Below the pieces are notes generated by a model that saw only the letters and a list, made by a program, of their open reading frames with translations, searched no databases and had not been told where the DNA came from. A stretch of DNA of 49,754 nucleotides, from the NCBI GenBank assembly GCA_018668255.1, contig JABISZ010000085.1:1-49754 (forward strand), given 5' to 3'. The DNA comes from Pseudomonadota bacterium (GTDB lineage: Bacteria; Pseudomonadota; Gammaproteobacteria; Ga0077536). Shown here one piece after another: positions 25,840 to 42,989 of this stretch (positions within the stretch are counted from its first letter, which is position 1; each line of letters opens with the position of its first letter). A program made the translations under genes and the position numbers.

Positions 25840-26970
25840 ATGCTTAAAATATTAGCCGTCGAAGATAAAAAACAACTCTCTGATTTTGTGAAAGTACCCT
25901 GGTATATCTACCAATCTGACAAAAACTGGGTACCGCCACTACTCCTAGAACGCAAACAGGCCTTATCACCGAGCCAAGGAATATTTAAGCACCTTATTTG
26001 GAAAGGTTGGGTGGCTTACGAAAACCAAACCCCGGTGGGTCGGATCAGTGCCCAAGTCGATCAAGCACATCTCGAGCAATACAATGACCACACAGGATTT
26101 TTTGGTAACTTTGAATGTATCGACGATATTAAGGTTGCAATGGAATTATTTCGGGTAGCTGAAAATTGGTTAAAAGAACAAGGAATGAACTCGGTACGCG
26201 GGCCTTTTAGCCTCAACATCAACCAAGAAGTGGGCTTGCTTGTTGAAGGTTTCGACACCCCTCCTTACTTCATGATGACTCATGCACCAAAATATTATGG
26301 GAAACTCATAGAACAGCTCAGCTACAAGAAATCGATGGATATGTTTGCATTCCTCATAAATACGAACTTTGAGCCACCGAGTTTTATGACCAAACTGCTA
26401 GCTAAGCTAGATGGGAAAGTGGCGTTAAGAGCAATTGATAGGAAAAATGCGAATGGAGATCTTGAGGTGATTAGGGAGATTTTCAATGACGCTTGGTCAG
26501 AAAATTGGGGCTTTGTTCCTTTTGATAAAGAAGAATTCTTGGCGATCGGTAAAGAGATGCTAATGTTGGTGCCAGCAGACTTCATACAGATAGCCGAAAT
26601 TGATCGAGAGCCCGTAGCGTTTCTTGTCCTTCTACCTAATTTAAATGAAGCGATCGCTGATCTTAATGGTCGGTTATGGCCGACCGGATTGTTTAAATTG
26701 ATACGAAGACTGAAGTTCGGGTACCCAAGTACTGGTCGTATACCTCTGATGGGCGTGCGTCGTAGGTTTCACAACACTCGGCTCGGGCCTGGGCTCGCTC
26801 TTTCGGTAATAGATGCAGTGCGCCCGCACGCAGTCAACAAGGGAATCACAAGTGTGGAAATGTCATGGGTTTTAGAAAATAACGAAGGAATGAAAACAAT
26901 TGTTGATATCCTAGGCGGATACCAATCCAAGCGCTACCGTGTATATGATAAAAAATTAGACGGTAGTTGA
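25840..26970 (+). CDS. YghO-like GNAT acyltransferase, candidate bacterial ceramide synthase
   Basis: A 376-residue protein of the YghO-like acyl-CoA N-acyltransferase family. It has VPWYIYQSDKNWVPPLLLER near the N-terminus, GRISAQVDQAH, GFFGNFECIDD, SVRGPFSLNINQEVGLLVEG, and a C-terminal GNAT half ending in SVEMSWVLENNEGMKTIVD and GGYQSKRYRVYDK. As I recall, the Caulobacter ceramide synthase bCerS is a GNAT protein of this kind; it N-acylates 3-ketosphinganine. The other ceramide genes lie at 35.1-39.3 kb, which makes that assignment attractive. Without that context it could be called only a GNAT protein. It is first in a plus-strand run with the two following genes. Confidence 0.65.
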   Translation: MLKILAVEDKKQLSDFVKVPWYIYQSDKNWVPPLLLERKQALSPSQGIFKHLIWKGWVAYENQTPVGRISAQVDQAHLEQYNDHTGFFGNFECIDDIKVAMELFRVAENWLKEQGMNSVRGPFSLNINQEVGLLVEGFDTPPYFMMTHAPKYYGKLIEQLSYKKSMDMFAFLINTNFEPPSFMTKLLAKLDGKVALRAIDRKNANGDLEVIREIFNDAWSENWGFVPFDKEEFLAIGKEMLMLVPADFIQIAEIDREPVAFLVLLPNLNEAIADLNGRLWPTGLFKLIRRLKFGYPSTGRIPLMGVRRRFHNTRLGPGLALSVIDAVRPHAVNKGITSVEMSWVLENNEGMKTIVDILGGYQSKRYRVYDKKLDGS

Positions 26971-27002
26971 AAACAAACTAACAGAATACAAAGGACAGAT
27001 GA

Positions 27003-27776
27003 ATGCATGCCATTATTCTTGCTGGAGATAGGCCAGGCGGAAGTCCACTAGCCAAATCTAATAATGTCTCAAGTGGCATATTCGTTAAAGTTAATGGTGT
27101 CACATGCATCAACCGAGTTTTAACAGCAATCCATAACAGCCGCTTAATAACTACTGCGTCGATTGTTGGGCCATCGAAAGAGAGCTTTTTAGGCGAGTCC
27201 TCATTAAGCGGTTTAATAGATAATTATGGCTTTGACTGGCTAAGCCCCGACAAAGGTCCTGCAGCTAGCGCAGCCAAGGCTTTAAGGCATGTGAATATCT
27301 TGCCCGCTTTACTAACAACGGCTGACCATGCATTACTTACACCTGAGATTATTGATGACTTTTGTAAGTCCGCGAAGACTGTTCAGGCCGATCTTGTGGT
27401 CGGCCTAGCGCTTCATACAGACGTCATAAAAGCATTCCCTCAGACCAAACGCACCCTGTTACGATTTGCAGACGGAATATACTGTGGATGTAATTTATTT
27501 TTACTTAACACTACAGAAAGTCAGTCTGTTTTAAGCTTCTGGAAAGCGCTCGAAGCCGATCGAAAAAAACCATGGCGGATAGTCATGAAACTCGGTCCTA
27601 AACTGTTACTGAAATATCTTTTTAGGCTGCTGACAATTGACGAACTATTTGAAAAACTTTCGAGTTGCTCAGGAGCTCGGGTCAGGTACGTATCAGTTTC
27701 AAATCCCATCGCCGCTATCGATGTTGACTCTGAAGGCGACCTAAAGTTAGCTAATGAGATCTGCTCAAATGATTGA
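27003..27776 (+). CDS. MobA-like NTP transferase
   Basis: A 257-residue nucleotidyltransferase fold. The N-terminal ILAGDRPGGSPLAKSN is a relaxed version of the GGxGTR/K loop, followed by KVNGVTCINRVLTAI and an LLTTADHALLTPEII segment with the metal-binding Asp. The CGCNLFLLN stretch and a PIAAIDVDSEGDLKLA C-terminus match MobA/GlmU-like transferases. It has good Shine-Dalgarno spacing (AAAGGA) and its stop overlaps the next gene by 8 nt. The sugar or alcohol phosphate it would activate is unknown; head-group synthesis for the sphingolipid locus is inference. Confidence 0.65.
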   Translation: MHAIILAGDRPGGSPLAKSNNVSSGIFVKVNGVTCINRVLTAIHNSRLITTASIVGPSKESFLGESSLSGLIDNYGFDWLSPDKGPAASAAKALRHVNILPALLTTADHALLTPEIIDDFCKSAKTVQADLVVGLALHTDVIKAFPQTKRTLLRFADGIYCGCNLFLLNTTESQSVLSFWKALEADRKKPWRIVMKLGPKLLLKYLFRLLTIDELFEKLSSCSGARVRYVSVSNPIAAIDVDSEGDLKLANEICSND

Positions 27777-28530
27777 ACAGGAAAAACAGCAAAGCCTAAA
27801 GCGCCGAATCACACATATGCTCGGGAAGAAATTTCTTAGAGTAATTGCGAGATTACAGTCAAGACACTCTCTTTTGCCCAATGACCCCATCCTTCCAAAC
27901 AGTTGCTTTACCTGGGTGCCCATGATGGAGAAATCTTATCCTGACATCCGCGAAGAATTCGAAAAGGTGTGGCTGCACCCTGAAAGTATTCCTGCCTTTC
28001 ATCAGCTCTCGCCCGATCAGTCTAGAATATCTAAAGCTGACAACTGGAAAACGTACCCTTTTTTTGTTTTCGGGCGCCCAATTACACAAAACTGTATTCA
28101 ATGTCCAAAAACTTCTACTCTTTTAAAAAAAATACCTGGTATACAAAATGCTTGGTTTTCAATTCTTGCTCCTAACTATCATATCCCCCCTCATCGGGGA
28201 CCGACTAAGGCTTTGGTAAGATGTCACTTAGGTATAAAGGTGCCTAACGATAATGCAAGTTGCTGGTTACGTGTCGACAAATTAATTTACAACTGGTCCG
28301 AAGGTGAATGCGTCCTCTTCGACGACACCTATGAGCACGAAGTTCATAACGACACAGCAGAATATCGAGCTGTCTTGTTTGTCGATGTAGACAGGCCCAT
28401 GGATAATTTTGGCAAGCTTTTAAATAAAGGAATACTCCGTTTGATGAAGGCCACACATTATGTAAAAGAACCTATGAAAAATATTTTGATATGGAACAGC
28501 AATCTACGATCAAAAAAACCAAATGCTTAA
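27769..28530 (+). CDS. Aspartyl/asparaginyl beta-hydroxylase (LpxO-like) family protein
   Basis: A 253-residue Fe(II)/2-oxoglutarate oxygenase. The double-stranded beta-helix motifs are IPPHRGPTKALVRCHLGIKV (first metal His and the 2OG-contacting region) and CVLFDDTYEHEVHNDTAEYR followed by AVLFVDVDRP (second His and the Arg that anchors 2-oxoglutarate). I choose ATG 27769, which overlaps the previous stop; ATG 27754 is possible. LpxO members 2-hydroxylate acyl chains of lipid A. Coupled to the preceding transferase inside a ceramide locus, 2-hydroxylation of the amide-linked fatty acid is a reasonable but unproven role. Confidence 0.7.
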   Translation: MIEQEKQQSLKRRITHMLGKKFLRVIARLQSRHSLLPNDPILPNSCFTWVPMMEKSYPDIREEFEKVWLHPESIPAFHQLSPDQSRISKADNWKTYPFFVFGRPITQNCIQCPKTSTLLKKIPGIQNAWFSILAPNYHIPPHRGPTKALVRCHLGIKVPNDNASCWLRVDKLIYNWSEGECVLFDDTYEHEVHNDTAEYRAVLFVDVDRPMDNFGKLLNKGILRLMKATHYVKEPMKNILIWNSNLRSKKPNA

Positions 28531-28642
28531 GATCAATCTTTTTTACATCAAAACTAGATTGTAGTAGATCGAATAAAGCAGCTATTCGTGTTAAGGTGCG
28601 CAGCAATTTCAAACAGCCACCAGATTTCTCTGAGGAAAAACG

Positions 28643-29368
28643 ATGAAAGCTATCATCCTAAGCGCAGGGCAAGGGAAACGACTCTTACCGTTAACAAAAA
28701 AAACACCTAAAGCCGCTCTTAGAGTGGGCAGCACTTCAGTTCTAGAGTGGCAACTCCAAGAACTAGCGAAATGTCAGATACACGAAGTTGTAGTAATCAC
28801 TGGTTTTGGAGCAGATCAAATAGACCACATCATCGACAACCAAAAAGATATGTCGGCACGTACTCTATACAATCCATTCTATTCTCAATCAGATAACTTA
28901 GGGACTTGTTGGATCGCTAGACATGAGATGACGGCTCCTTTCATGATCATCAACGGAGACACGCTATTTGAATCAGCTATAGTAGAGAAACTTTTAGCGG
29001 CCAACCCCGAAAATCCCATTAACTTAGTGACTGACTGTAAAGATCTGTATGACGACGATGATATGAAAGTTATTTTAGAGACCGGTATAGTAAAAAACGT
29101 TTCTAAGACACTTGATCGAGCGCGCGTAGATGGGGAATCAATCGGGATGATGTCTTTCAATCATGAGGGTGCGTCGCTATTTGTAAGCGAGCTAAACTCG
29201 ATGATGCGATCTGGTTCCGGACTATCTCAATGGTACCTCTCAGCAATAGATTCAATTGCACAGTCACTTAAGGTGTTTGCTTGCCCCATAGAGGGCTCTG
29301 AATGGTGTGAAATAGATTCAGTCGGTGATTTAGAGACAGCTGAAAAAACTGTCTCTCGCTGGCTGTAA
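28643..29368 (+). CDS. LicC/IMPCT-like cytidylyltransferase
   Basis: A 241-residue nucleotidyltransferase with an intact active site: LSAGQGKRLLPLTKKTPKAA (sugar-1-phosphate nucleotidyltransferase signature), the NPFYSQSDNLGTCWIARHEM segment that in choline-phosphate and inositol-1-phosphate cytidylyltransferases reads N-x-x-Y-x-x-(T/S)-N-N, metal-binding D106 in INGDTLFE and the late EWCEIDSVGDLETAE. A GAGGAAA Shine-Dalgarno precedes it. It would make a CDP-alcohol (CDP-inositol, CDP-choline or similar). The CDP-alcohol phosphotransferase 4 kb downstream is the natural user of that product. Confidence 0.7.
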   Translation: MKAIILSAGQGKRLLPLTKKTPKAALRVGSTSVLEWQLQELAKCQIHEVVVITGFGADQIDHIIDNQKDMSARTLYNPFYSQSDNLGTCWIARHEMTAPFMIINGDTLFESAIVEKLLAANPENPINLVTDCKDLYDDDDMKVILETGIVKNVSKTLDRARVDGESIGMMSFNHEGASLFVSELNSMMRSGSGLSQWYLSAIDSIAQSLKVFACPIEGSEWCEIDSVGDLETAEKTVSRWL

Positions 29369-29372
29369 CTTT

Positions 29373-29873
29373 CTACCGCATAATTCGACGAACTTTAACT
29401 CTCGAATTATTCCCGGCCTCCCATGTCCCATTTTCTAAATCATAATGAATGGCATTACTAGAAATCAATTGGGCATCAGCGGAAATTTCTGCGTCACCCC
29501 GCATATCCACTGTTTTCTTGACCACATCATAAGTTAATAGAGATCCCGTGCCTAAAAACGGGGCTTTATCTTCAAAGTTGTACCTGATACTCGCGGGGCT
29601 ACCAGCAACTTCAAGAACATCAGCATCTGTTAAAGGACCACTTATTAGGCCTTTCGATGCTTTTATTTCCCATTGTTCTTCTTTTATAGACAAGCCTCCA
29701 CTAATAAAAAATCCGCCTTCTAAGTTACTTTGGACCGCTTTTTCAGCGACTACTAACACAGGGTAATAAGCTGCTATGCTGTGCATATAAGACAAAAGAA
29801 GCAAACTAAAAATCTGTAAAAATAGAATCATACGAAAGTACATGTTGCGAAACAGTATAGTCGAAGCCATCAT
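29373..29873 (-). CDS. LptA/OstA-like periplasmic protein
   Basis: About 166 residues. A hydrophobic signal segment (FRMILFLQIFSLLLLSYMHS, ending near an A-Y-Y junction) is followed by beta-strand repeats typical of the OstA/LptA/LptC jellyroll: LVVAEKAVQSNLEGGFFISG, SPASIRYNF, LLTYDVVKKTVDMRGDAEIS and SNAIHYDLENGTWEAGN. LptA-type proteins bridge lipid across the periplasm. The start is uncertain (ATGs at 29873, 29870 or 29843; none has a clear Shine-Dalgarno). It is divergent from the LptF gene by about 50 bp, implying a shared promoter region. Confidence 0.65.
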   Translation of the reverse strand: MMASTILFRNMYFRMILFLQIFSLLLLSYMHSIAAYYPVLVVAEKAVQSNLEGGFFISGGLSIKEEQWEIKASKGLISGPLTDADVLEVAGSPASIRYNFEDKAPFLGTGSLLTYDVVKKTVDMRGDAEISADAQLISSNAIHYDLENGTWEAGNNSRVKVRRIMR

Positions 29874-29926
29874 ATGCAAAGGGAACTAGCCAAGCAACCA
29901 GCAGCTAGCATACATATGGATCTCCA

Positions 29927-30973
29927 GTGATTATAAATCGTTACATCTACCGAGAAATAAACTCAAACTTAATTGCAGCGGCGATAACACTCTTTGTCAT
30001 CTTCTTTTCATATAGCTTCACACGTTTCATGATCGATGCAGCAAGCGGATTATATAAATTAAACGAGGTACTAACGCTCACATTATATAAATTAATTATT
30101 GCTCTAGAGGTGTTGCTCCCGCTTTCTTTATATTTCGCAATTATATTTGGCATTGCAAATCTCGGCGTTCGAAACGAACTAGTTGTCATACGGTGCGCCG
30201 GAATGCGTGATCTAGATATCCTCAAGCCCATCATCACTGTTTGCGTAGCCGTTTCACTAATCGCAGGGCTACTGTCGTGTTTTGCTCGGCCAATGACCTA
30301 TGATGCCATTTTCCAGTTAAAAGAGACTGCACAAGCTTCTGCAGGCTTCGAACGCATAAAACCTGGCCAGTTTTACGACTTTAACGACGGACAGAGAACG
30401 GTGTATATCGAGGGGCTAGAAAAAGAAAGTAACCAGATAACTGGGGTATTCATACGCTCGACAAAAGAGGATTATCTGGAAATCGTATCAGCTCCTTCAG
30501 GGATGCTTAAACTCTTTGATAACGACGATTCTCATTTATTAGCCTTGCATAACGCGAGCGTATTCCGCCAGAGAACTGATGACAAAGATATTATAGGCAA
30601 ATTCAATTATCTTGAAATTCGGTTGAAGACCCGTATAGAAAACGAAACGGAATACCGTTCCAAATCAATCCCAACAATCGAACTGTTTAACTCAAATGAT
30701 TCATTTGACTCCGCTGAATTACAATGGCGCTTCTCAACGCCAGTCACTACTCTCTTACTAGGACTTATCGCATGGTTTTTAACCACTAACACTCCCAGAA
30801 AGAGTAGGTTCAGTAAATTACCTTTAGCGTTGGCAATCTACGCTGCCTACTATAATCTTCTTGGCTTATCGCGGTCTTGGGTAGAACAGGACATTCTATC
30901 CATCATTTGGTGGGTGCCGATCCTGACATTTACACTAGTCATAACTATAAAAAAGTTTCTGTGGAAGCAATGA
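29927..30973 (+). CDS. LptF-family permease
   Basis: A 348-residue YjgP/YjgQ (LptF/LptG) family membrane protein starting at GTG. Three N-terminal helices hold RYIYREINSN and the RNELVVIRCAGM cytoplasmic motif that contacts the LptB ATPase. A periplasmic jellyroll domain (about 130-255) precedes the AELQWRFSTPVTTLLLGLIA helices and PRKSRFSKLPLALAIYAAYY. The match is closer to LptF than LptG. It could be the organism's only LptF, but pepA, the usual neighbour, is absent and an LptA-like gene and sphingolipid genes surround it. Confidence 0.85.
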   Translation: MIINRYIYREINSNLIAAAITLFVIFFSYSFTRFMIDAASGLYKLNEVLTLTLYKLIIALEVLLPLSLYFAIIFGIANLGVRNELVVIRCAGMRDLDILKPIITVCVAVSLIAGLLSCFARPMTYDAIFQLKETAQASAGFERIKPGQFYDFNDGQRTVYIEGLEKESNQITGVFIRSTKEDYLEIVSAPSGMLKLFDNDDSHLLALHNASVFRQRTDDKDIIGKFNYLEIRLKTRIENETEYRSKSIPTIELFNSNDSFDSAELQWRFSTPVTTLLLGLIAWFLTTNTPRKSRFSKLPLALAIYAAYYNLLGLSRSWVEQDILSIIWWVPILTFTLVITIKKFLWKQ

Positions 30974-30977
30974 AAAC

Positions 30978-32036
30978 ATGATTCTAAGCCGCTACATTTT
31001 CTCTCAATTTTTCACTAGCGCTTTTTTTGCATTGGTAACTTTGCTTATTTTATTCAGCATTATAAGTCTAGTGGAAACACTAGAAAACGTCGGACAAGGC
31101 AGCTTTACTTCCTTGCACGCTTTTTTAGTCATACTATTTGAGACACCAAACAGAATTATTGAACTACTTCCGATAGTCACGCTCTTGGGCACAATCATGG
31201 GCTTAGGATCGCTTGCTAATAATCAAGAGATAGCAGCATCACGGTCCGCCGGAGTATCTGTGATCAAGTTCGTGAAAATATTTATTTGCATCACTATCCT
31301 AGTATCTCTTGTAGCCATCTTAATACAGACCTACCTTATTCCTGGATCGGAAAAACAAGTGATACGACTTAATAGCCTTGCCATCGAACAGACCAACGTC
31401 ACGGCGAAGGGTTTCTGGAGCAAGAAGGGTCAGACCATTGTCAGAATAGAGGAAATGCTATCTGCAAGTACAGCCGCCTCTATTGAAGTCTACAATTTAT
31501 CAGCACAAGATAATCTTGAAAGCATTACCATCGCCACATCTGCGGAGATTAAAGAGAACTCGAAGTGGCTTCTTAAGAAAGCGATCACTAGAGTCGTTAG
31601 CACCTCTTTAGGACTCTCTAAGAAAAACGAAGATACACTTACATGGGATAGTTTCCTAGAAGATAGCCAGCTAAAAACGCTAACAAGCCCGCTGTATGCT
31701 ATCTCCGCCCTAGACTTAATGCGCTATATCCGAGCCAACAGAGAATCCGGCGTGGATACTCGTTCTCATGAGGTAATTTTATGGCAACGACTGATTTTCC
31801 CTATAACATTACTTGCAATGGCACTTATAGGCGTATCTATAATATTAAGTTCCACTACAAACCGTGCAGCGGGATCTCGATTATTAATAGCAATGGGCAT
31901 AGGAGTATTTCTTTATCTCCTACAGCAGACAACGGGCCATCTATCCACCCTATTGAATATCAGCCCAGTGATTACGGTATGTATCCCACCATTAGTAATG
32001 TTGACTGTAGCACTACTTGCAATTAGACGAATATAA
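30978..32036 (+). CDS. LptG-family permease
   Basis: A 352-residue YjgP/YjgQ family protein, the partner of the preceding gene (4-nt gap, GGAAG Shine-Dalgarno). The LptG-type start LSRYIFSQFFTSAFF, ETLENVGQGSF, ELLPIVTLLGTIMGLGSLAN, the SRSAGVSVIKF coupling helix, a periplasmic jellyroll and a final set of membrane helices are present. LptF-LptG heterodimers with LptB extract lipopolysaccharide from the inner membrane. Here the cargo could be LPS or the locus's own sphingolipid. Confidence 0.85.
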   Translation: MILSRYIFSQFFTSAFFALVTLLILFSIISLVETLENVGQGSFTSLHAFLVILFETPNRIIELLPIVTLLGTIMGLGSLANNQEIAASRSAGVSVIKFVKIFICITILVSLVAILIQTYLIPGSEKQVIRLNSLAIEQTNVTAKGFWSKKGQTIVRIEEMLSASTAASIEVYNLSAQDNLESITIATSAEIKENSKWLLKKAITRVVSTSLGLSKKNEDTLTWDSFLEDSQLKTLTSPLYAISALDLMRYIRANRESGVDTRSHEVILWQRLIFPITLLAMALIGVSIILSSTTNRAAGSRLLIAMGIGVFLYLLQQTTGHLSTLLNISPVITVCIPPLVMLTVALLAIRRI

Positions 32037-32041
32037 AATCT

Positions 32042-32938
32042 TTATCTTAAGGCAGTGTCTTTCCATACTATCTCGCTCGTCATGATTTCCCCACAACGTG
32101 AGTCATGAACAACCTCTAAAGTCGAAACCATCCTCCAATCTGATTGATCTCGAACTACATCAAAGATTCGAAAAGAGCTAGAGGCGTGCCTTAAAGCATT
32201 TGATGCAGAGGCGGTGGAAAACACCTTTGTATAATCATTAATGCAGTATTCTGTATTACGATGAACATGGCCATGAAGCACAAACTCAGCCCTGCCTCGG
32301 TCAAGTACCCCCTGCAATGCCTTGCTATTTCTAAGTGCCTTTCGACCTGCACAGCGACCCTCAATTGGCGGGTGATGAATAAGAACACATCTCATGGACC
32401 CAGTAGAATCCTGCAATATCTTTTCGAGTTCGTTTAATTGTCCCTCATCTACCATACCTCTCGCCGACCAAAATGGTTCAGGTTGAGCAGAGGACAGTCC
32501 AATGATCGTGGTGTTGCCCACACGTATAACTGACGGGAAAGTATTTCTCTTATTCCCGTCAGGCCATAGATACTGAGCCCAGCTTTGACAGGCGGATGCC
32601 ACAGAGTCTGCCTGATAGAAATCATGGTTACCCGGAACAAGAACAACCTTTGCTATTTTCGAAAGACTGTCTAGCCATTGTGCGGCCTGATCTATCTCGC
32701 TGGCTAAACCAATCTGTACAAGATCACCAGTCACGACAATGACATCAGGTTCCTTTTTCTCAACATGGTTTGTAAGGCAATCCAAGGTTGCACGCAAATG
32801 ATGCTGACTCCTTCGGCGCCACGATAAAGCCCCTAAAAACCTCTTCCCGCCTAAAAATCTTCGCGCCATTACTCCGTCAAGACTGCTCAAATGAGGGTCA
32901 CTTAGATGCACGATCCTAGTTCTTTCTTTTGTATTCAT
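32042..32938 (-). CDS. Calcineurin-like metallophosphoesterase
   Basis: A 298-residue dimetal phosphoesterase with complete motifs: IVHLSDPHL, VVTGDLVQIG, VVLVPGNHDFY, VLIHHPP and VLHGHVHRN. The RRFLGGKRFLGALSWRRRSQ insertion after motif I is basic and aromatic and could touch membrane lipid. No signal peptide is visible, so it should act in the cytoplasm. It is convergent with lptG (5 bp) and divergent from the CDP-alcohol phosphotransferase gene. A lipid-phosphate or CDP-lipid hydrolase is plausible; the family is too broad for a firm substrate. Confidence 0.75.
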   Translation of the reverse strand: MNTKERTRIVHLSDPHLSSLDGVMARRFLGGKRFLGALSWRRRSQHHLRATLDCLTNHVEKKEPDVIVVTGDLVQIGLASEIDQAAQWLDSLSKIAKVVLVPGNHDFYQADSVASACQSWAQYLWPDGNKRNTFPSVIRVGNTTIIGLSSAQPEPFWSARGMVDEGQLNELEKILQDSTGSMRCVLIHHPPIEGRCAGRKALRNSKALQGVLDRGRAEFVLHGHVHRNTEYCINDYTKVFSTASASNALRHASSSFRIFDVVRDQSDWRMVSTLEVVHDSRCGEIMTSEIVWKDTALR

Positions 32939-33008
32939 TTTTGCTGCGCCGACTTTAACTCTCTATACTGCTGGCAATTATAGTTAACAATCATAAGTAG
33001 ATAATAAC

Positions 33009-34199
33009 ATGCTAAATGCTGCGTTGATCCTTTCTGGTAATAATCAAAACGTGTGGGGCCTCTCAGGAGTCGATAGAATACGAAAGCAACTAAATGCTCT
33101 AGACATTAGTAACATTGCAGAAGAACTCGGAGCAGTCTCAAGCGAGGAAGCTCTCGTTATCGATTCTAATTTTCTATTTGAACAAAAGACATTGAAAAAA
33201 TTTCTAGCGAGTTCTTCAATGTTTTTACTTTGTCCCCAATCTAAAATATTGGCAGCAGCTAAATGTAATCATGCAGAGCTCGAAAAGACCGCAGTAAAAA
33301 TCGGCACGAAAAACGCTGAGCTCGAAGTAGATCAAACAGTAGTCACACCGACTGATCTGGACGGCTTCGACAAAGAGTTAAGGAAAACAAAGCCACCTTT
33401 GTTACTGTATCAGGCAGACTTCACTACTCATCAAGTCGAATCTATTCTCTATGGAAACTCATACAAAGGCGTTACAGACTTTGTCACAAAATGGTGGTGG
33501 CCTGCTCCCGCGCGCTTACTGGTAAAGAAATGTTCTGCAATCGGAGTCACTCCAAACTATATCACAATACTAGGGGCTATTTTGGTCGTGCTCTCGACTT
33601 ATTTATTCCTCCAAGGCTATTTTCTTTCGGGCTTACTAAGTGGCTGGCTCATGACGCTTCTAGATACTGTTGACGGAAAGCTGGCTCGAGTGACAGAACA
33701 GAGTAGTAAAATTGGTCATGTGATGGATCACGGCATGGACATCATTCATCCACCTATCTGGTACTTTTTCTGGGGCTTAGGCTTGTCTGAAACAATGAAT
33801 TTATGGGGCTTTAACCTAGAGCTTCTCTCTGGCCTTATGATTGGGACATATATCTTGGGTAGAGTCATAGAAGGAGCATTTGAGGGGCTAGGTACCTGCT
33901 CAATGTTCGCATGGCGCCCATTTGACGCGTACTTTAGGCTGTTTGTAGCACGGAGAAACCCGTGCTTAATTCTACTGACTATAGGGACTATGGCAGGACA
34001 GCCGGGATTAGGTTTTGTTGCAGTGGTAGGGTGGACAGCTTTGTGTACGCTCATCCTAGCACTGAGGCTTTTGTATGCAGGGAAAGTTCGTTTAGGAACA
34101 GGTGTGCTTCACTCGTGGCTCGAAGATAAACTCGCGGCATCAACCAGGCATCCAAAAGCATATAGAACTTTTAGTGAAACAAAAAAAGCTTATGAATGA
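33009..34199 (+). CDS. CDP-alcohol phosphotransferase with a degenerate nucleotidyltransferase N-domain
   Basis: A 396-residue, two-part protein. Residues about 170-380 are a CDP-alcohol phosphatidyltransferase membrane domain with every signature residue: D219, D222-G223, A226-R227, G236, D240 and D244. It is preceded by IGVTPNYITILGA, the usual start of the domain. Residues 1-160 resemble a nucleotidyltransferase (LNAALILSGN at the N-terminus) but lack the GxGTR loop and metal Asp, so that half looks inactive. The architecture recalls fused inositol-phosphate cytidylyltransferase/CDP-alcohol transferase enzymes. Catalysis would transfer a phospho-alcohol head group onto a lipid alcohol, plausibly ceramide, with the separate cytidylyltransferase at 28.6 kb supplying CDP-alcohol. 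Confidence 0.75.
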   Translation: MLNAALILSGNNQNVWGLSGVDRIRKQLNALDISNIAEELGAVSSEEALVIDSNFLFEQKTLKKFLASSSMFLLCPQSKILAAAKCNHAELEKTAVKIGTKNAELEVDQTVVTPTDLDGFDKELRKTKPPLLLYQADFTTHQVESILYGNSYKGVTDFVTKWWWPAPARLLVKKCSAIGVTPNYITILGAILVVLSTYLFLQGYFLSGLLSGWLMTLLDTVDGKLARVTEQSSKIGHVMDHGMDIIHPPIWYFFWGLGLSETMNLWGFNLELLSGLMIGTYILGRVIEGAFEGLGTCSMFAWRPFDAYFRLFVARRNPCLILLTIGTMAGQPGLGFVAVVGWTALCTLILALRLLYAGKVRLGTGVLHSWLEDKLAASTRHPKAYRTFSETKKAYE

Positions 34200-35088
34200 A
34201 AACGTATCCAATCTTAATGAAAATTGGCCGGACATTTTTTCTCTGGCTTTGCAGGAAAAATTTCGACCTAATATTTTAGCTATAATACTTTACGGTTCTT
34301 GGTTAAGAGGAAACAGGGACACCCTTCCTGACTTCTACGTTATCTTAGATACCTATAGCTGCTTACCATCAAGATGGGAACGTTTAGGGAATCGAGTGTT
34401 GAAACCAAACGTTTATAATTTGTTATTACATGAAGAAGAGAAAACCTGTGTGGCTAAGTATGCGACGATAACACTGAAGCACTTTGTCTCAGGAATTACC
34501 AATGACTTCCACCCATATTTGTGGGCTCGCTTTAGCCAACCTACCAAAGTAATCTTTTCAAAGAGTTCAGCTATTTCTTCATCAATAAGTCACGCCTTCA
34601 CTAAGGCCAGCGAACGTATGCTCTCAGAGACTATTCCAATGGTCGCATCTGAATCCTCTTTAAATACACTATGGGAGACTAGCCTGGCGCTAACGTACAA
34701 AACTGAGTTGAGAAGTGAAAATTCACAAAAATCAAGAGAACTCGTGGGCCATTACGCTAAATACCTTGAGAAAAAAACCGACTTAATCGGCCCCAGATAT
34801 GGACTATCTAAGACCGAACGAGGTACATGGGTTTGTCATAGCAGCTGGCCGAAGCGATTTACTGCTGTTGTTAAGTGGAAACTACGAAATTACGTCGGGA
34901 CATTGTTATCCGTAATACGGCTCGTCAAAGCTGCTTTCACTTTTAATGAACCGCTCGAATACATTCTTTGGAAAGTTGAACGCCATACCGGTATCAAAAA
35001 AGAAGCTAGTCTTCGCCAGAAGCGCCACCCTCTTATTTTCGCCTGGGGCTTATTGTGGGAAATTTATCGAGAAGGTGGCTTCAAATAA
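34192..35088 (+). CDS. Polymerase-beta-like nucleotidyltransferase-fold protein, function unknown
   Basis: A 298-residue protein starting at ATG 34192, which overlaps the CDP-alcohol phosphotransferase stop by 8 nt, so the two are coupled. LYGSWLRGNRDTLPDFYVIL (residues 34-52) resembles the GS-x10-DxD core of polymerase-beta nucleotidyltransferases, but the second metal aspartate is a tyrosine (D47-F-Y49). A mostly helical C-terminal part follows with a basic, aromatic stretch (WPKRFTAVVKWKLRN, about 225-240). I do not recognise a characterised relative. Context suggests a partner or regulator in head-group transfer. Confidence 0.55.
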   Translation: MNENVSNLNENWPDIFSLALQEKFRPNILAIILYGSWLRGNRDTLPDFYVILDTYSCLPSRWERLGNRVLKPNVYNLLLHEEEKTCVAKYATITLKHFVSGITNDFHPYLWARFSQPTKVIFSKSSAISSSISHAFTKASERMLSETIPMVASESSLNTLWETSLALTYKTELRSENSQKSRELVGHYAKYLEKKTDLIGPRYGLSKTERGTWVCHSSWPKRFTAVVKWKLRNYVGTLLSVIRLVKAAFTFNEPLEYILWKVERHTGIKKEASLRQKRHPLIFAWGLLWEIYREGGFK

Positions 35089-35097
35089 CAACTGCTC

Positions 35098-36297
35098 TCA
35101 ATTCAGCCGACCAACGTTTCGTTCTTTACAGACTTTTTTGAAAGCAGATATTATGGAATCGACTTGAGTTTCTGAATGTGCCGCAGTAACGCTACAGCGA
35201 ATCAAGCTTCCCCCGTCAGGGGCGGCTGGCGGCAATATAAGATTGGTATATATACCCAAGGATAATAAATCTTGCCAGCATGAGAATGCTTTTTCACGAT
35301 CTTGAAAAGATACACCGATAACAGGGCTGACTGTCGGTCCTATGTCTAGTCCTAGCTCAACAAAGGCTTCATATAAATGCTTTGCATTGCGCCAGACTTT
35401 CTCACGTAAGCCTTGACCTTGCTGCACTTTTTTTAAGGCTTCTCGAGTAGTTGCGATCACCGATGGGGATGGCGATGCTGTAAAGATGTAAGGCCGGCTA
35501 GCGTAGCGGACAAGCTTGAGTTGAGGATGCTTACTAACACAAAACCCTCCAATAGACCCTAAGCTTTTACTAAAAGTCCCAACGATAAAATCAACATCGT
35601 TCATCAGATCATACTCTTCAACAAGACCTCTGCCATTCTCTCCATATAAACCGAGCGAATGCGCTTCATCAACCAAGAGTATCCCTCCATACTGTGCTTT
35701 CACATCGACGAATTCTTTAAGTGGAGCGCAATCCCCACGAACACTATAAAGGCCTTCAACTACGATAAGTGCATCTTTCGCTTTTTCTCCTAATCGACTA
35801 AGTCGTTTAGCCAACCCGTCAGGATCATTGTGTTTGAAACGATATATCTTTGCGCCACTCATCCGACACCCGTCATATAGGCTAGCATGTCCCTCAGAGT
35901 CTAATAATACTGAGTCATCTACATCTAATAATGCGGTTAGAATACCCAAATTCGCAGAATAACCAGTAGAAAAAACCATTGCATGAGGAAGGTCAAAGAA
36001 GACCGCCAGCTCATCTTCTAATTGCAAATGTTCTTTATAGGTTCCATTAGCCATGCGTGAGCCGGTAGTTCCAGTACCTGTTTCAGCTAAGGCTGCCTGA
36101 CCAGCTGAGATACAATCAGCATCGAAAGTTAAACCTAAGTAGTTATTCGTACCTGCCATAATTGTAGTTCGGCCATTTACGATAGCTTCGGATGCAGACA
36201 CTACATTACTTATTACAATCGAAGTCGGATTGACCGGCATCGAAGACAATGTAGATTCAAGAGCCGCGGCTGCATCAAACTTTGAAAATAAACTCAT
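35098..36297 (-). CDS. spt: Serine palmitoyltransferase-like alpha-oxoamine synthase
   Basis: A 399-residue PLP enzyme of the alpha-oxoamine synthase family. Key features are TNNYLGLTFD, GTGTTGSRMANGTYKEHLQL, SEGHASLYDG (H137), VDEAHSLGLYGENGRG (D210, H213), the Schiff-base lysine K244 in GTFSKSLGSIGGF and the PPAAPDGGSLIRCSVTAAHS C-terminal block. Alternatives are BioF or KBL. Co-transcription with an acyl carrier protein, an SDR and an acyl-activating ligase, and the PPAxPxGxSLIRxS motif, favour serine palmitoyltransferase, which makes 3-ketosphinganine from serine and acyl-ACP. It follows the acp gene by 5 nt. Confidence 0.85.
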   Translation of the reverse strand: MSLFSKFDAAAALESTLSSMPVNPTSIVISNVVSASEAIVNGRTTIMAGTNNYLGLTFDADCISAGQAALAETGTGTTGSRMANGTYKEHLQLEDELAVFFDLPHAMVFSTGYSANLGILTALLDVDDSVLLDSEGHASLYDGCRMSGAKIYRFKHNDPDGLAKRLSRLGEKAKDALIVVEGLYSVRGDCAPLKEFVDVKAQYGGILLVDEAHSLGLYGENGRGLVEEYDLMNDVDFIVGTFSKSLGSIGGFCVSKHPQLKLVRYASRPYIFTASPSPSVIATTREALKKVQQGQGLREKVWRNAKHLYEAFVELGLDIGPTVSPVIGVSFQDREKAFSCWQDLLSLGIYTNLILPPAAPDGGSLIRCSVTAAHSETQVDSIISAFKKVCKERNVGRLN

Positions 36298-36302
36298 TTA
36301 AC

Positions 36303-36545
36303 TCACTCACTACTAATTCTTTCAACAACAGATGCAAGGTCACCAAAAGTGCTGACATGCGACAGTGACTCCTCGTCCACAACCACATCGAAAGCATCTT
36401 CAACTTCGCAGAGATATTCAATGACTTGTATTGATTCTAAACCAGCATCACCCAAAAGAGTTGAATCTTTAGATAATACTAATGACTTCCCAAGAGAGCC
36501 TTCGAGCAATTTTATGAGCTTCTCAACAACGGCATTCTTATCCAT
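36303..36545 (-). CDS. Acyl carrier protein of the sphingolipid operon
   Basis: An 80-residue carrier protein with the phosphopantetheine serine S38 in GDAGLESIQVIEYL (ESI instead of the DSL of general AcpP) and an acidic C-terminal helix region. GAGG lies 6-7 nt before the ATG. In Caulobacter a dedicated ACP (AcpR) delivers the acyl chain to serine palmitoyltransferase. The position between the SDR and spt genes fits that role. Confidence 0.88.
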   Translation of the reverse strand: MDKNAVVEKLIKLLEGSLGKSLVLSKDSTLLGDAGLESIQVIEYLCEVEDAFDVVVDEESLSHVSTFGDLASVVERISSE

Positions 36546-36583
36546 ATATACCTCATAACTGTTTGTGTAATCAGCATACCCAG

Positions 36584-37546
36584 TCAGACTAGCTGGCGTA
36601 CACCTTCAATTAAGTCAATTCTAGGGGTCCAACCAGTCTTTTCTGTGATGCGGCTATTATCACAAATCCATTCTTGCTGTGAAAGCTCTCGCACCTTGCC
36701 TTCTGTCAACATTGGTGCGTAGTGCAAACGCTCTGCCATCTTACGATTTAACGCCGCCAAAATATTGGCAACTTGTCTTGGTATAGGAAGCCTGAGGGCT
36801 ATTGAGTTCCCCCGCACTGCCTTGATAATATCAGACCAAGAATAGCCTCCAAGCTGACCGTCATGCAAATCGACACAGCATCGATTCATGTCGTCGCCAG
36901 CATCAATAGTGCAAATAATTGACCGCGCAAGATCCTCTGCATGTAAAAAAGACAACATCTGATTACTAGAACCTATCAATGGAGCAATACCGATACGAAT
37001 AAGGCGGAAAATTTTGAGCATCTCCGTATCACCCAACCCATATACAGCAGGGGGTCGCAAGATAGACCATCGCAAGCCTGCAGTGCCTTTCAAGGCTTGC
37101 TCTCCTAAATATTTACTTTGGGCATAATCCGAGACATGGGGTCTCGATGCAGCAAGAGAAGATAATAGTAAAAAGCGAGCATTAGTAGATCCTACTAGCG
37201 ACAAAGCACTAGCAAATCTTTTGACTCCGGAGATATTCGCATCAGTAAAGTCTTTAAGCTCAGCACCTTTGACAGTACCCGCGCAATAGACAACTAAGTC
37301 GCAGTCGGTAACAGCTTCTCGCACGCTGTCTTGATCATTTAGGTCTCCAAAGACGGGAACACAACCCAACATGAGCCCCAGTGGCCTTGGTGACTTTTGT
37401 CTCACAAACACTTTAACGTCATGGCCTGCCGACAGCAGATATTTTTGGACGTGTTGTCCAATGAATCCGGTCCCACCAGTTAAAAGTATACGCAGCTTTC
37501 CTGTTGAGGTATCAGCCGTTTCCACCAGCAACCTGAGTGCCACCAT
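36584..37546 (-). CDS. Extended SDR, candidate ceramide reductase (CerR-like)
   Basis: A 320-residue NAD(P)-dependent extended SDR. The Rossmann motif is TGGTGFIGQHV (about residues 23-33); the catalytic pair is in YAQSKYLGE; the sugar-epimerase-like VYGLGD and late SQQEWICDNSRITEKTGWTP follow. CerR reduces the keto group of N-acylated 3-ketosphinganine to dihydroceramide in Caulobacter, and the operon position supports that. The start is uncertain: ATG 37546 overlaps the upstream gene by 35 nt and lacks a Shine-Dalgarno, while AGGAAAG lies just before the conserved LRILLTGG, where only CTG or ATA could initiate. Confidence 0.7.
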   Translation of the reverse strand: MVALRLLVETADTSTGKLRILLTGGTGFIGQHVQKYLLSAGHDVKVFVRQKSPRPLGLMLGCVPVFGDLNDQDSVREAVTDCDLVVYCAGTVKGAELKDFTDANISGVKRFASALSLVGSTNARFLLLSSLAASRPHVSDYAQSKYLGEQALKGTAGLRWSILRPPAVYGLGDTEMLKIFRLIRIGIAPLIGSSNQMLSFLHAEDLARSIICTIDAGDDMNRCCVDLHDGQLGGYSWSDIIKAVRGNSIALRLPIPRQVANILAALNRKMAERLHYAPMLTEGKVRELSQQEWICDNSRITEKTGWTPRIDLIEGVRQLV

Positions 37547-39266
37547 TGAAAAGTTCTAGCCTGGCGAGAAAGTCTTGCTTCGCTTTAGAACGCGATAGTT
37601 TGCCGGAAGAAGTGCGTGGAAGAGTTCGGGGTGGGACCAAATCAAGATGACAAACTATTCCGAAATTTTCAGTCATTAGCGCTGATAATTCAGACACCAG
37701 AGTTCTAATCTTAGCAGGGTTCTTTTCCCTAGACTCAACCACGATAACCACTTGATCAGAGCCTTTCTCATCCGAGAATGAAAAAGCGGACACATTACCA
37801 AAGCGGACTCCTGGAAGTGTCTCAGCGAGATACTCAAGATCATGTGGCCATATGTTTCGGCCATTAACAATAATTACGTCTTTTCTTCGAGCAGTAACTA
37901 CTATGTTTTCTCCAATCCTGTAACCGATATCCCCTGTATCCAGCCAGCCGTCTGAACTTAACGACTCTTCGGTTGCAGCAGGATTTTGAAAGTACCCCGT
38001 CATTACGCTAGGCCCTCTCAAGCAAATCCTTCCACATTGGTTGTCGGGAAGGTCGCTACCATCGTCGCCTCTTATAGCTAATTCAAAGCTCGGAAGAACC
38101 TTACCACAATCTACAAATGTGAGCGCTTTCACAGTGTTTTCATCAACCTTGCTTACAGGTATGACTAGGCCTTCAGATGACATTTTGTCCTTATCAACTT
38201 GCATAGACTTAATACCCACGTCTAAGGCTTCAAAGCTTATAGCTAGGGCACACTCCGCCATCCCATAACATGCGACAAATGCCTTCGGATTGAAATTTGC
38301 TGCTTTTAGAACATGAGCAAACTGACGCAAAGGTTCCGGATGTATTCTCTCAGCACCGACACATGCCACTCGCCACGAACTGAGATCATATTTATCCTGG
38401 TCTGTTAGCCTGAGTCTTTTTGCACAAAGCGCGTAGCCAAACGGCGGGCTAGAAGAAATAGTCCCTTTGTTCTGCGAAAGTAACTTCAACCATAGTCTTG
38501 GCCTCATCCCAAATGTTCGCGGGCTCAAATAATCAGCCGAAAGCTGACTGCCCAATGGAAGTAATACGAAAGCCACTAAACCCATGTCGTGATAAAGAGG
38601 CAGCCAAGATACCATCCTGTCCTGCTCAGTTATCTTCAACCCATGGACCGAGATATCACGTAAATTCGCCATCACTGACTTCTGAGATATCTCTACTCCT
38701 CTCGGGAAACGTGTGCTGCCAGAAGTGTACTGGAGATAAGCGATATCATCTGCATTTAAAGGAAATAACTTCTTTCCAGATTCGTGAAGCGTATCAAACT
38801 CGTCTGATGTTCCTGCTTTTACTAAATCTAATCGCTCAACCGCCTGTTTTAAAAATCCGATATGCGACTCGGGAGCGACTGCGACATCCGCACCACAGGT
38901 ATCTAGCATTCTTTCTAGCTGTTCAACATAGGCTTTGCGAGCACCTATCTGAAAACCTGCAGGTAAGGCAACTGGAACAAAGCCTGCATATTGGCAGGCG
39001 AAGAAGAATCGATGGAACGTAGGGTCAGTCTCAGCGACAATTGCAACCCTTGCGCCTCGTTTAAGCCCAAGTCCTACAAGCTTTTTAGCCAAGCATTTAG
39101 CCTCTAAGCGCAGATCTTTGTAACTTAGGACAGATGAGAGCTCGCCTCGCCCATCATAAAAATTATAACCAGTTTCACCTTCAGCGGCGTACTCTAAGGC
39201 CTCGACTAAAGTGTCGAAAGACGCGTTTCTTAATGGTAAAGAACTGTTAAGTGGAGTGATTTTCAT
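37512..39266 (-). CDS. Fatty acyl-AMP/acyl-ACP ligase of the sphingolipid operon
   Basis: A 584-residue ANL-superfamily enzyme of the FAAL/acyl-ACP synthetase type. Motifs are AYLQYTSGSTRFPRGVEISQ, SWLPLYHDMGLVAFVLLPLG, SSPPFGYALC, YGMAECALAISF, WLDTGDIGY, the hinge ARRKDVIIVNGRNIWP and the C-terminal lysine in TSSGKLSRSKAKQDFL. The HDMGL block and GRNIWPHDLE are FAAL-like. It should activate a fatty acid and load the neighbouring ACP, as the Caulobacter Acps/AasR ligase does. The first gene of the operon; I prefer ATG 39266 over an upstream TTG at 39290, though neither has a clear Shine-Dalgarno. Confidence 0.85.
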   Translation of the reverse strand: MKITPLNSSLPLRNASFDTLVEALEYAAEGETGYNFYDGRGELSSVLSYKDLRLEAKCLAKKLVGLGLKRGARVAIVAETDPTFHRFFFACQYAGFVPVALPAGFQIGARKAYVEQLERMLDTCGADVAVAPESHIGFLKQAVERLDLVKAGTSDEFDTLHESGKKLFPLNADDIAYLQYTSGSTRFPRGVEISQKSVMANLRDISVHGLKITEQDRMVSWLPLYHDMGLVAFVLLPLGSQLSADYLSPRTFGMRPRLWLKLLSQNKGTISSSPPFGYALCAKRLRLTDQDKYDLSSWRVACVGAERIHPEPLRQFAHVLKAANFNPKAFVACYGMAECALAISFEALDVGIKSMQVDKDKMSSEGLVIPVSKVDENTVKALTFVDCGKVLPSFELAIRGDDGSDLPDNQCGRICLRGPSVMTGYFQNPAATEESLSSDGWLDTGDIGYRIGENIVVTARRKDVIIVNGRNIWPHDLEYLAETLPGVRFGNVSAFSFSDEKGSDQVVIVVESREKNPAKIRTLVSELSALMTENFGIVCHLDLVPPRTLPRTSSGKLSRSKAKQDFLARLELFNGGTQVAGGNG

Positions 39267-39290
39267 GTCAATTTGATCGGTTTTTTCCAA

Positions 39291-39628: not shown

Positions 39629-41166
39629 TCAATCAAAGTAACCTTGTAAATACCACTCAGCTGAATCTGCAAGCTCCTTATACAGCCACAACCTAACTCC
39701 TTGAGCAGTAGTTGCCATAAAATAGTCTCTCGCAACTTCTTCAGAATCCCACCAACCGCTGACAATTCGCTCACGCTCTGTTGTGAAAGATAGACTCCCT
39801 TGATAAAAAGGGCGGCCCATTATACTTTCTAACTTTATAGGCTCTCTCAATAGCCATAACGGTCGTACTCTGAAAACATGTTCAATAACTTGGGTTTGAA
39901 GGGATTGTTGTCCTTGTTTTATGAAAGTACAAGTCTTCTCAGGAACATGGCTATTACCAATGACTGGTTGATAGGTTGAAGCTCTCCCAAGCCGCGCTTT
40001 TAGAAGCTCAATGAAGTCTGAACTTTCTTTTGTTAATGTGTCTTTTTTTTAAATAGATCTGTTGATTCGCTGTCTTTACTGTCATATAGATCCGTAACTT
40101 TAAGACTAATAGCATACACCGTTGATTTTAAATTCTTTTGAGCCAATATTTGACGAACAAGTAAGAGCATACTTTCGGTATCTCTCTCAGTCTCTCTAAG
40201 ACTAATTGAGCGTTTATCTATCTCTTGGCAGTCTCCCCGCAACTCCCATTGAAGAAAATTCGTCACTAGCCTTCTGTTAAAAAGATATGTTTGCAGCTCA
40301 GACAGTAAGTGTTGCATCGCTGTCAAAAGAGCATAACTATTCTCCACGCCCCAAGGCAAAGAAATTTCAGACTCAAAAAAATTGGGTAATTGGAACCCAA
40401 TTTGTGGATCCACAATATCCCCAAACAAACGATCTAACGTGCTAACGAAAGCTACAGAGAACCTCTCGGAGAGACCTCCACGAGGCAGGCGACGACAATC
40501 ACCAATTAGCTTAACTCCCAAGGTGGCTAGTTCTAGCTTCTGCTTATCTTTAACTGGTAAAGCGTCAATCGAAAGTCCATTTATGAATGTTTTCATTTGC
40601 TCCTTATCTAGAAAAACCTTACCCAAGGATTGCTTGGATAGCACTCTTGCGGCAAGAGGCGTCGGTGCAACAGCATACTCTGCACGATAACCTAACCGCC
40701 TAACCCCAATACGAATATCGTTTACTAGCGAATCTAAACCACCAAAAAGTTTGACACTAGAACCTACATTCAGAAGTAATCCAAAACTAGAGGACTTCAC
40801 AACAACAGGGGTAAATTGAAGCGCCCATGAACATAACCCGTCAAACGCTGCCGCCTCCGCACTTTTATCTCGCTCCAAAACTCTGACCGGGACAATGAGC
40901 TTCGCTGTTTGAATAGAGCTGCCTACTCGAACACCTAATGCCGCCGCACTTACGTTACATAGTTCAATCTTAGAACACCCATTACTCGACGAGGCAAGCA
41001 CACAAGGCTCTTTTCTATCCATATTTCTTGTTAGAACTTCCAGCGAGAAATGTGGAAGATATAGAGCAAGCCACAGCTCTTGTTGAGCGTCACTATTGGT
41101 TTTTTTATCATTAGACAACATTGAAATATCATGAGGTCGTGGAAAAACAGAAGGGACAATATTCAT
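39629..41166 (-). CDS. imuB: ImuB, Y-family polymerase-like protein split by a -1 frameshift
   Basis: The N-terminal frame (41166 to a TAA at 40033, 377 residues) has the ImuB start LWLALYLPHFSLEVL, where active Y-family polymerases carry metal-binding Asp, and KLFGGLDSLVNDI. The C-terminal frame is open from the A-run at about 40050 to 39629 and encodes FIELLKARLGRAS, HVFRVRPLWLLREPIKLE, FTTERERIVSGWWDSEEVARDYF and EWYLQGYFD, the ImuB tail that binds the sliding clamp and ImuA/DnaE2. Joining them needs one -1 shift, at A_AAA_AAG (40048-40042). The joined protein is 512 residues, normal for ImuB. It may be frameshifted deliberately, rescued by transcript slippage on A8, or broken. Translation is coupled to imuA by an ATGA overlap. 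Confidence 0.85.
40042..40048 (-). other. Slippery heptamer A_AAA_AAG in imuB
   Basis: Read on the minus strand, zero-frame codons TTT AAA AAA AAG ACA CAT TAA put A_AAA_AAG, the dnaX-type -1 slippery site, three codons before the stop. A -1 slip makes the next codon GAC and enters the frame of the conserved ImuB C-terminus. The heptamer is part of an A8 run (40050-40043), which also favours RNA polymerase slippage. I see no strong upstream Shine-Dalgarno-like element and only a weak AAGC-GCG-GCTT hairpin well downstream. Confidence 0.6.
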
Positions 41167-41822
41167 AACGTTAAAATGTACTCTTGCTTGTTCGGCGCCC
41201 CATTTCCTTTTATATGCGTCACCTTTAAAGAGAGAGGAGCGTACTCTCGAGGTTCTACGTACTCGGGATCCTTAGGAATAATGTCTAACTGCAGACGAGA
41301 TGATGCCGCTAGAGGATGTCGACGATATATCGAAGGTCGAAGTATCAAACCTAAAGTCTCGCCGCTTTCAGCAGAAAGTTTCAGCCGTCTCCCCTTTCCT
41401 ATTGCTAACTCGTCACACCAAAATAGAGCAATCCCACAACCATGAAACTTTAATGCTTGCTCATATGCCCAAAGATATTTTTTTTCTATGTCCTCATCAG
41501 TCTCAGGAAAATCAATCACCAAAACATTGGAGAGGATTACCCCCTCTCTCACCCATTCCGAAAATAGAGGGGTATGGGGGGGATTAATCAAAATAATCCA
41601 TTTGCCTTCTTGGCTAAGCTTAACCAATAAAGGCATCATCAGACGTAATGCCCCGCAGCTCGGTGTCGAAAGTAAAATTTCAACTAACCCTGTTTTTGGC
41701 CAACCTCCACCTAGTAAGGCTTGATTTAAAAGATCAAATCCAGTCGGATACGTCTCAAGACAACGTGTTGCTTCATTTCCACTCATGAGCCCCGATTTTT
41801 TCAACAAATCTTCAACGCCCAT
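41163..41822 (-). CDS. imuA: ImuA, RecA-like SOS mutagenesis protein
   Basis: A 219-residue ImuA/SulA-like RecA-related protein. TGFDLLNQALLGGGWPKTGL is the ImuA entry motif, followed by VEILLSTPSCGALRLMMPLL where a classic Walker A is degenerate, and WIILINPPHTPLFSEWV and LEVDLP-like WCDELAIGKGRRLKLSAE. It starts on ATG 41822, sharing a base with the lexA stop (TGATG), and its own stop overlaps the imuB ATG. It works with ImuB in damage-induced translesion synthesis. Confidence 0.88.
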   Translation of the reverse strand: MGVEDLLKKSGLMSGNEATRCLETYPTGFDLLNQALLGGGWPKTGLVEILLSTPSCGALRLMMPLLVKLSQEGKWIILINPPHTPLFSEWVREGVILSNVLVIDFPETDEDIEKKYLWAYEQALKFHGCGIALFWCDELAIGKGRRLKLSAESGETLGLILRPSIYRRHPLAASSRLQLDIIPKDPEYVEPREYAPLSLKVTHIKGNGAPNKQEYILTL

Positions 41823-42608: not shown

Positions 42609-42989
42609 ATGAGTAATAAAGATAAACCAACCGGATTTCCAAGACTGGTAAAAGCCTTAGGCTACTCACTGAACGGACTACGCGCAGCTTGGGTTCATGA
42701 AGAAGCATTTCGGCTGGAATCCATCGTTACTTTATTTCTAATGCCAGCTGTTTTTCTAGTCGGAGATAGCCCGCTCGAATACCTTATATTAGCTCTCTCT
42801 CTATTCGCTCTAATAGTTGCAGAGCTGTTCAACTCGGCAATAGAAGGATTGTGTGATCATGTCAATCCGACACACCATGCACTTATAGGTCGGATAAAAG
42901 ACTATTGTGCCGCAGCAGTTTTTTTGGCAATACTGATTGTAATCACTCTCTGGATCGCTATTGGATGGATGAACTGGATTAGCTTATAA
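42609..42989 (+). CDS. dgkA: Diacylglycerol kinase
   Basis: A 126-residue integral membrane kinase with three helices. The active-site blocks are HEEAFRLE and AELFNSAIEGLCDHVNP, followed by GRIKDYCAAAVFLA, as in E. coli DgkA. It phosphorylates diacylglycerol to phosphatidate. Divergent from lexA, as dgkA is adjacent to lexA in E. coli. E. coli DgkA accepts ceramide in vitro, so ceramide from the nearby locus is a conceivable side substrate. Confidence 0.95.
   Translation: MSNKDKPTGFPRLVKALGYSLNGLRAAWVHEEAFRLESIVTLFLMPAVFLVGDSPLEYLILALSLFALIVAELFNSAIEGLCDHVNPTHHALIGRIKDYCAAAVFLAILIVITLWIAIGWMNWISL

Follow-up and report, generated by a model that had tools for sequence, protein, structure and literature searches.

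A probable ceramide phosphoglycerate locus without the ceramide kinase CpgB in a gammaproteobacterial lineage

In Caulobacter crescentus (CC_1152–CC_1168; PMC11324152, PMC10331486, PMC12275187), six genes serve the formation of CPG2, a lipid of the ceramide phosphoglycerate (CPG) class, beyond the five for ceramide, together with LptC2, LptF2, LptG2 and a possible flippase (Olea-Ozuna 2024, PMC11324152). CC_1153 is required for CPG2 (PMC11324152), and the requirement for CpgA and CpgD is confined to the second phosphoglycerate (PMC11324152, PMC12275187). Here, we describe a fourteen-gene sphingolipid locus on contig JABISZ010000085.1, analysed over its entire 49,754 nucleotides (hereafter the window), from an uncultured Pseudomonadota bacterium of the gammaproteobacterial lineage Ga0077536 (GCA_018668255.1; 2.3 Mb, 98% complete, 106 contigs). 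This is very probably a Rhodobacteria-type locus for a charged phosphosphingolipid of the CPG/CPG2 class that would be sent to the outer membrane, and the ceramide kinase CpgB is absent from it and from its whole lineage.

With Caulobacter, the locus shares the five ceramide genes, CpgA, CpgC and CpgD, counterparts of CC_1153 and CC_1158 and a second LptF/LptG pair. In contrast, Caulobacter possesses CpgB and a possible flippase gene, both missing from the window's cluster, in which an LptA/C-like protein takes the place of LptC2 and the operon order differs. Azotobacter vinelandii, Pseudomonas luteola (PMC11324152) and plasmid pBYT5-2 of Pseudomonas sp. BYT-5 (L050) carry contiguous gammaproteobacterial CPG-type clusters like that of the window, and the plasmid also shares its OlsC-like hydroxylase; however, all three keep CpgB (for the two chromosomes, according to the published list of missing orthologues). 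The E. coli cluster spt-acp-cerR-aasR-yghO-lptFG (L053) has the ceramide set and the LptF/G pair in common with the window, but it holds no cpg head-group genes and carries a YghQ-type flippase and YghR/S/T instead.

Ceramide genes

An earlier note on this DNA had proposed a ceramide locus made of five gene families. All five open reading frames were found at the positions it gave, the sole difference being the start of the ligase, and the Caulobacter-type set spt, acpR, aasR, cerR and cerS/bCerS is complete. The serine palmitoyltransferase (SPT) gene (35098–36297, minus strand) encodes a protein scoring 579.4 bits against NF047599 (cut-off 500), and its identity as BioF, Kbl or ALAS was ruled out by profile scores (BioF 312 bits for a cut-off of 426, Kbl 308 for 460) and by phylogeny. 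The tree was built with the genome's own paralogue of the alpha-oxoamine synthase (AOS) family, other AOS enzymes and BioF and Kbl of E. coli; in it, all SPTs, among them the window protein and those of S. wittichii, S. paucimobilis and E. coli, form one fork with a support of 99/99. The question set beforehand, whether this enzyme groups with Spt or with BioF/KBL, is therefore answered in favour of Spt. The nearest solved structures are Sphingomonas SPTs, and the active-site residues H137, D210, H213, K244 and R367 of the S. paucimobilis enzyme are kept.

The gene for the dedicated acyl carrier protein AcpR (36303–36545, minus strand; PF00550, a PP-binding domain) adjoins spt. Next to it lies a gene for a CerR-like ceramide reductase of the short-chain dehydrogenase/epimerase family (36584–37546, minus strand; PF01370), which also lies between aasR and acp in relatives and whose start is uncertain. 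AasR (37512–39290, minus strand), a fatty-acyl-AMP ligase and acyl-ACP synthetase with an AMP-binding domain, scores 741 bits against NF006624 (cut-off 600); it starts either at the in-frame ATG at 39266 or at the TTG at 39290, where the longest open reading frame begins. The published AasR loads AcpR only (PMC9386255), and the window ligase fits this description. The putative ceramide synthase bCerS (25840–26970, plus strand), counterpart of CC_1154, matched neither Pfam nor NCBIfam in profile scans, but it shares 46.8% identity (over 99%) with annotated E. coli YghO, and its gene stands beside the cluster in relatives. Overall, these assignments support the prediction of a ceramide gene set. 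As for the order of reactions, two models have been published (PMC11087976), of which acylation of the ketone before its reduction is one, and the five-gene set it requires is present.

The genes are arranged in an almost gapless minus-strand run, aasR-cerR-acp-spt (39290–35098), and in three plus-strand groups, bcerS-ntp3-olsC-cpgD (25840–29368), lptF2-lptG2 (29927–32036) and cpgA-cpgC (33009–35088, with an 8-base overlap), between which the LptA/C-like gene and a metallophosphoesterase gene stand as single minus-strand genes. Close and distant relatives carry the same block, gene for gene, and the ratio of nonsynonymous to synonymous substitutions (dN/dS) between the window and two congeners is 0.00–0.31, with spt at 0.03–0.05, cpgC at 0.12–0.15, cpgA at 0.18–0.19 and cpgD at 0.07–0.14; the sole exception is ntp3 compared with L018, whose value above 1 rests on almost no substitutions. 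Conservation and low dN/dS together indicate that the block is not due to chance. It is flanked by a tRNA-Leu/rnr region and by imuB-imuA-lexA (40033–42433), a neighbouring group whose order is kept in relatives and whose ImuB-like protein diverges fast and matches the IMS family weakly.

Head-group and export genes

The earlier note had suggested that a head-group module and an export module surround the ceramide genes, and both were recovered. Counterparts of CC_1152 (CpgD), CC_1153, CC_1158, CC_1159 (CpgA) and CC_1161 (CpgC) are present in the window, and they match the clusters of Desertibaculum, Roseomonas, Diaphorobacter and Pseudomonas; in L037, L051 and other clusters, the cpgC and cpgA homologues adjoin CpgB. 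The CC_1153 counterpart, ntp3 (27003–27776, plus strand), encodes a MobA/CofC-like nucleoside triphosphate transferase (PF12804, 29.3 bits for a cut-off of 27) that is conserved in the clusters, and the CC_1158 counterpart (32042–32938, minus strand) a calcineurin-like phosphoesterase (PF00149, 68 bits) found at the same position in L037 and in relatives.

The CpgD-like CTP:phosphoglycerate cytidylyltransferase (28643–29368, plus strand) is an NTP_transferase-domain protein related to LicC. The residues that contact CTP and glycerate are known from structures of CpgD (PMC13228409), and the contact residues (G9, R13, K23, N85, T88, N104, G105, D106, M141, K155, S166 and W197) were matched at the corresponding spacing in the window protein with one exception, the backbone contact T88, which is S83. 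They are invariant in 24 proteins, save T88 (Thr or Ser). The equivalents of N110, M147, K161, S170 and W201 are invariant in the 24 proteins and altered in the phosphocholine enzyme LicC. The retention of the contact residues argues that the CpgD-like protein would make CDP-glycerate, and hence for a lipid of the CPG class rather than for an undescribed head group.

The CpgC-like protein (34192–35088, plus strand) scores 15.5 bits against the Tam41 profile PF09139 (cut-off 24), whereas its homologue in L019 reaches 32.6. Its predicted structure (mean predicted local distance difference test score, pLDDT, 86.6) shares the fold of the Tam41 family: it matches bacterial Tam41 (7ecd) with a Z score of 19.7 over 223 residues at 2.9 Å, the next family being at about 10, although sequence identity is only ~16%. 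Tam41 is a family of mitochondrial CDP-diacylglycerol synthases, which form CDP-diacylglycerol from CTP and phosphatidic acid; for this reason, ceramide 1-phosphate (C1P) is a natural guess for the acceptor of CpgC and is its presumed substrate. The CpgA-like protein (33009–34199, plus strand; PF01066), which has an additional N-terminal domain, carries the complete invariant motif of CDP-alcohol phosphotransferases (D219..D222-G223..A226-R227..G236..D240..D244), and its model, of moderate confidence (pLDDT 76.6), matches AF2299, phosphatidylinositol-phosphate synthases and IPCT-DIPPS.

The export genes encode LptF2 (29927–30973, plus strand; TIGR04407, 251 bits for a cut-off of 230), LptG2 (30978–32036, plus strand; TIGR04408, 279 for 240) and an LptA/LptC-like periplasmic bridge protein (29373–29879, minus strand; PF03968, 29.4 for 20.4; TIGR03002, 45.1, under the cut-off of 71.7). 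The genome holds four LptF/LptG-type proteins, two in the window and two on other contigs, and LptF2/LptG2 are an export pair additional to the other copies. LpxC was also found, indicating that lipopolysaccharide is probably made too; its replacement by a sphingolipid, as in Sphingomonas, was ruled out. A Wzx/MATE-like flippase gene (PF01943) lies between spt and cpgC in relatives (L021, L023–L027, L073 and L074) and is missing there in the window's genus; YghQ of E. coli matches distantly (25%). The flippase gene is the extra gene in the longer spt–cpgA gap of relatives, for which CpgB had been considered and ruled out.

Absence of CpgB and the proposed route

Neither the window's genome nor any SPT-bearing genome of the six related genera with this type of cluster yielded a DAGK_cat protein. 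In a CpgB profile search, none of the lineage's 15 genomes (six genera), some of them 97–100% complete, had CpgB, while the same search finds it in genus g10, which falls in the same GTDB family (E values 1e-115 to 1e-86). Across the class, CpgC occurs in 20 of the 369 genomes surveyed, and among these CpgB is also absent from G297 and G280, whose clusters were read (G280 has one weak, unlinked DAGK_cat match); G369 and G040 gave no CpgB match either, but both genomes are incomplete. Three changes in CpgB presence are needed in each of the CpgC, CpgA and bCerS trees, and well-supported branches force at least one in the CpgC tree and at least two in the others. Nevertheless, purifying selection maintains cpgC. 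In G008 and G006 (the latter only 62% complete), both members of the lineage, CpgB is missing, CpgA is missing genome-wide and CpgD is missing from the cluster, while CpgC, ntp3 and the export genes remain, a gene set that fits CpgC acting first. The predicted product of these reduced clusters (L072 and L074, respectively) is CPG only or a simpler lipid.

The lineage-wide absence of CpgB implies that another kinase, with DgkA as the likeliest candidate, must stand in for it, or that the route must differ. DgkA, an integral-membrane lipid kinase, is encoded in the window outside the operons (42609–42989, plus strand; PF01219, 102 bits) and is present in all 15 lineage genomes as well as in G297 and G280, whereas the 19 CpgB-bearing genomes have it in eight cases and lack it in eleven. 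Counted by genome, the association between the lack of CpgB and the presence of DgkA is strong (p 0.0001). A strict mutual exclusion of the two holds within the family but fails across the class, where these eight genomes have both. E. coli DgkA with ATP has been used in vitro for ceramide quantification (PMC3779446). That DgkA makes C1P in place of CpgB is, in our judgement, a tentative proposal with slightly less than an even chance of being right.

From the gene identities, their conservation, the absence of CpgB and the presence of DgkA, which are read from the sequence, we infer the reactions of the organism as follows. AasR would load a fatty acid onto AcpR, SPT would condense the acyl chain with serine, the YghO-like enzyme would add the N-acyl chain and CerR would reduce the ketone. 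C1P would then come from DgkA, CpgB having been lost in the lineage; CpgD would form CDP-glycerate, and the Tam41-like CpgC with CpgA would build the phosphoglycerate head group. The OlsC-like enzyme would hydroxylate an acyl chain, and LptF2/LptG2 with the LptA/C-like protein would export the lipid to the outer membrane.

Several points weigh against this interpretation. The lipid product is a prediction from genes alone, and the reactions of CpgC and CpgA are proposals, unsettled even in Caulobacter. The matching to Caulobacter genes is indirect, through family, synteny and the clusters of named relatives (Desertibaculum L037, Roseomonas L051, Diaphorobacter L052 and the Pseudomonas plasmid L050), and the CpgD residues were likewise matched indirectly, by spacing and alignment. 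Moreover, DgkA is a common housekeeping gene, and when independent lineages are counted, it accompanies the lack of CpgB in 3 of 3, compared with about half (p 0.23), so that the association is a lead and not a proof.

Other routes were weighed against this one. CpgA, which has the motif and fold of a CDP-alcohol phosphotransferase, might move phosphoglycerate from CDP-glycerate, the donor that CpgD would provide, directly to ceramide, in the same way as eukaryotic CDP-ethanolamine phosphotransferases act directly on lipid alcohols; CpgB, which is indeed absent, would then be unnecessary. We consider this kinase-free route unlikely, given that it leaves no role for the Tam41-like CpgC and that G008 and the partial genome G006 keep CpgC in spite of their other losses. 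These losses, together with the genetics of Caulobacter, where CpgA and CpgD serve the second phosphoglycerate only (PMC11324152, PMC12275187), speak against CpgA as a general bypass. About equally unlikely is that C1P comes from an unlinked kinase other than DAGK_cat or DgkA proteins, or that CpgB was missed because the assembly, 98% complete, is in 106 contigs, since 15 genomes in six genera, some nearly or fully complete, lack CpgB, and the same search recovers it in g10.

The retained enzymes might instead add another phospho-alcohol, giving the undescribed complex sphingolipid put forward in the earlier note. Even if the gene set differs from that of Caulobacter, with neither CpgB nor a CC_1166-type flippase and with OlsC-like and LptA/C-like proteins added, we find this improbable, as the module is that of the described ceramide phosphoglycerate and the glycerate and CTP contacts of CpgD are matched and conserved. 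It is less probable still, to the point of being remote, that the head-group part is decaying after the loss of CpgB and that only plain ceramide is made; cpgA and cpgD are gone from the G006 and G008 clusters too, but cpgA, cpgC and cpgD are intact in the window's genus (dN/dS 0.07–0.19) and conserved across deep divergence.

Predicted hydroxylase, distribution and biological relevance

The window's cluster carries its own 2-oxoglutarate dioxygenase gene of OlsC/LpxO type (27754–28530, plus strand; PF05118, 166 bits), a predicted ceramide acyl-chain hydroxylase that recurs in sphingolipid clusters, whereas in Caulobacter it is the unlinked DesA-type CC_0202 that hydroxylates the amide-linked acyl chain (PMC11324152). 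The protein scores 204 bits against the OlsC profile NF052565 (cut-off 450) and 114 against LpxO (cut-off 500); being under both curated cut-offs, it is assigned to the superfamily only and is not called an orthologue of either. Such a dioxygenase is found in every window-type cluster whose region is complete and also in G297, G280, G312, G365 and pBYT5-2, and every well-sampled CpgB-less genome combines a cluster-borne hydroxylase of this type with a retained DgkA. The Roseomonas and Diaphorobacter clusters have a sterol-desaturase-type or desaturase gene in its place. A strict exclusion between CpgB and the OlsC-like gene fails, as both occur in the Pseudomonas plasmid, G312 and G365. Our literature search found no paper on an OlsC/LpxO-type hydroxylase of bacterial sphingolipids. 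On balance, the OlsC-like enzyme rather likely hydroxylates an acyl chain of the sphingolipid. The joint proposal, that CpgB was dispensed with more than once (probably three times), with DgkA supplying C1P and an OlsC/LpxO-type enzyme acting as ceramide acyl hydroxylase, is somewhat less likely than not to be right.

The earlier note had regarded sphingolipids as unexpected in most gammaproteobacteria, a view that is not supported: clusters have been published in A. vinelandii and P. luteola (PMC11324152), the SPT of E. coli B is active (PMC9386255), and 4,047 out of 5,426 complete genomes of E. coli carry spt along 80% or more of its length. In E. coli PN43 (L053), as in most E. coli, spt-acp-cerR-FAAL-yghO-lptFG lies between glc and pitB; in K-12 (NC_000913 3129043-3132408, L049), only yghO and yghQ-T are left around IS5, which adjoins yghO. 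The conjugative plasmids pBYT5-2 (L050, Pseudomonas) and pDCB2 (L052, Diaphorobacter) carry CPG-type sets and offer a ready route for horizontal spread. A window-type cluster with an SPT identity of 70% is also present on L024 (CAMCBY010000067.1), a contig of a metagenome-assembled genome titled Klebsiella pneumoniae, a record name that looks wrong.

Thus, sphingolipid genes in gammaproteobacteria are known; what is new is a form that has DgkA and an OlsC-like hydroxylase but no ceramide kinase of the CpgB type, and the absence of CpgB from the lineage and the added hydroxylase are unusual points that go beyond the earlier note. To our knowledge, the CPG head-group enzymes are only partly understood. 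The CpgB-less lineage, with its members that also lack CpgA and CpgD but keep CpgC, provides natural deletions that narrow the role of CpgC, and it suggests that DgkA may be a ceramide kinase in vivo. The lineage further points to the OlsC/LpxO superfamily as a possible source of bacterial sphingolipid hydroxylases, and it is a further gammaproteobacterial lineage in which an export set dedicated to sphingolipids coexists with LpxC.

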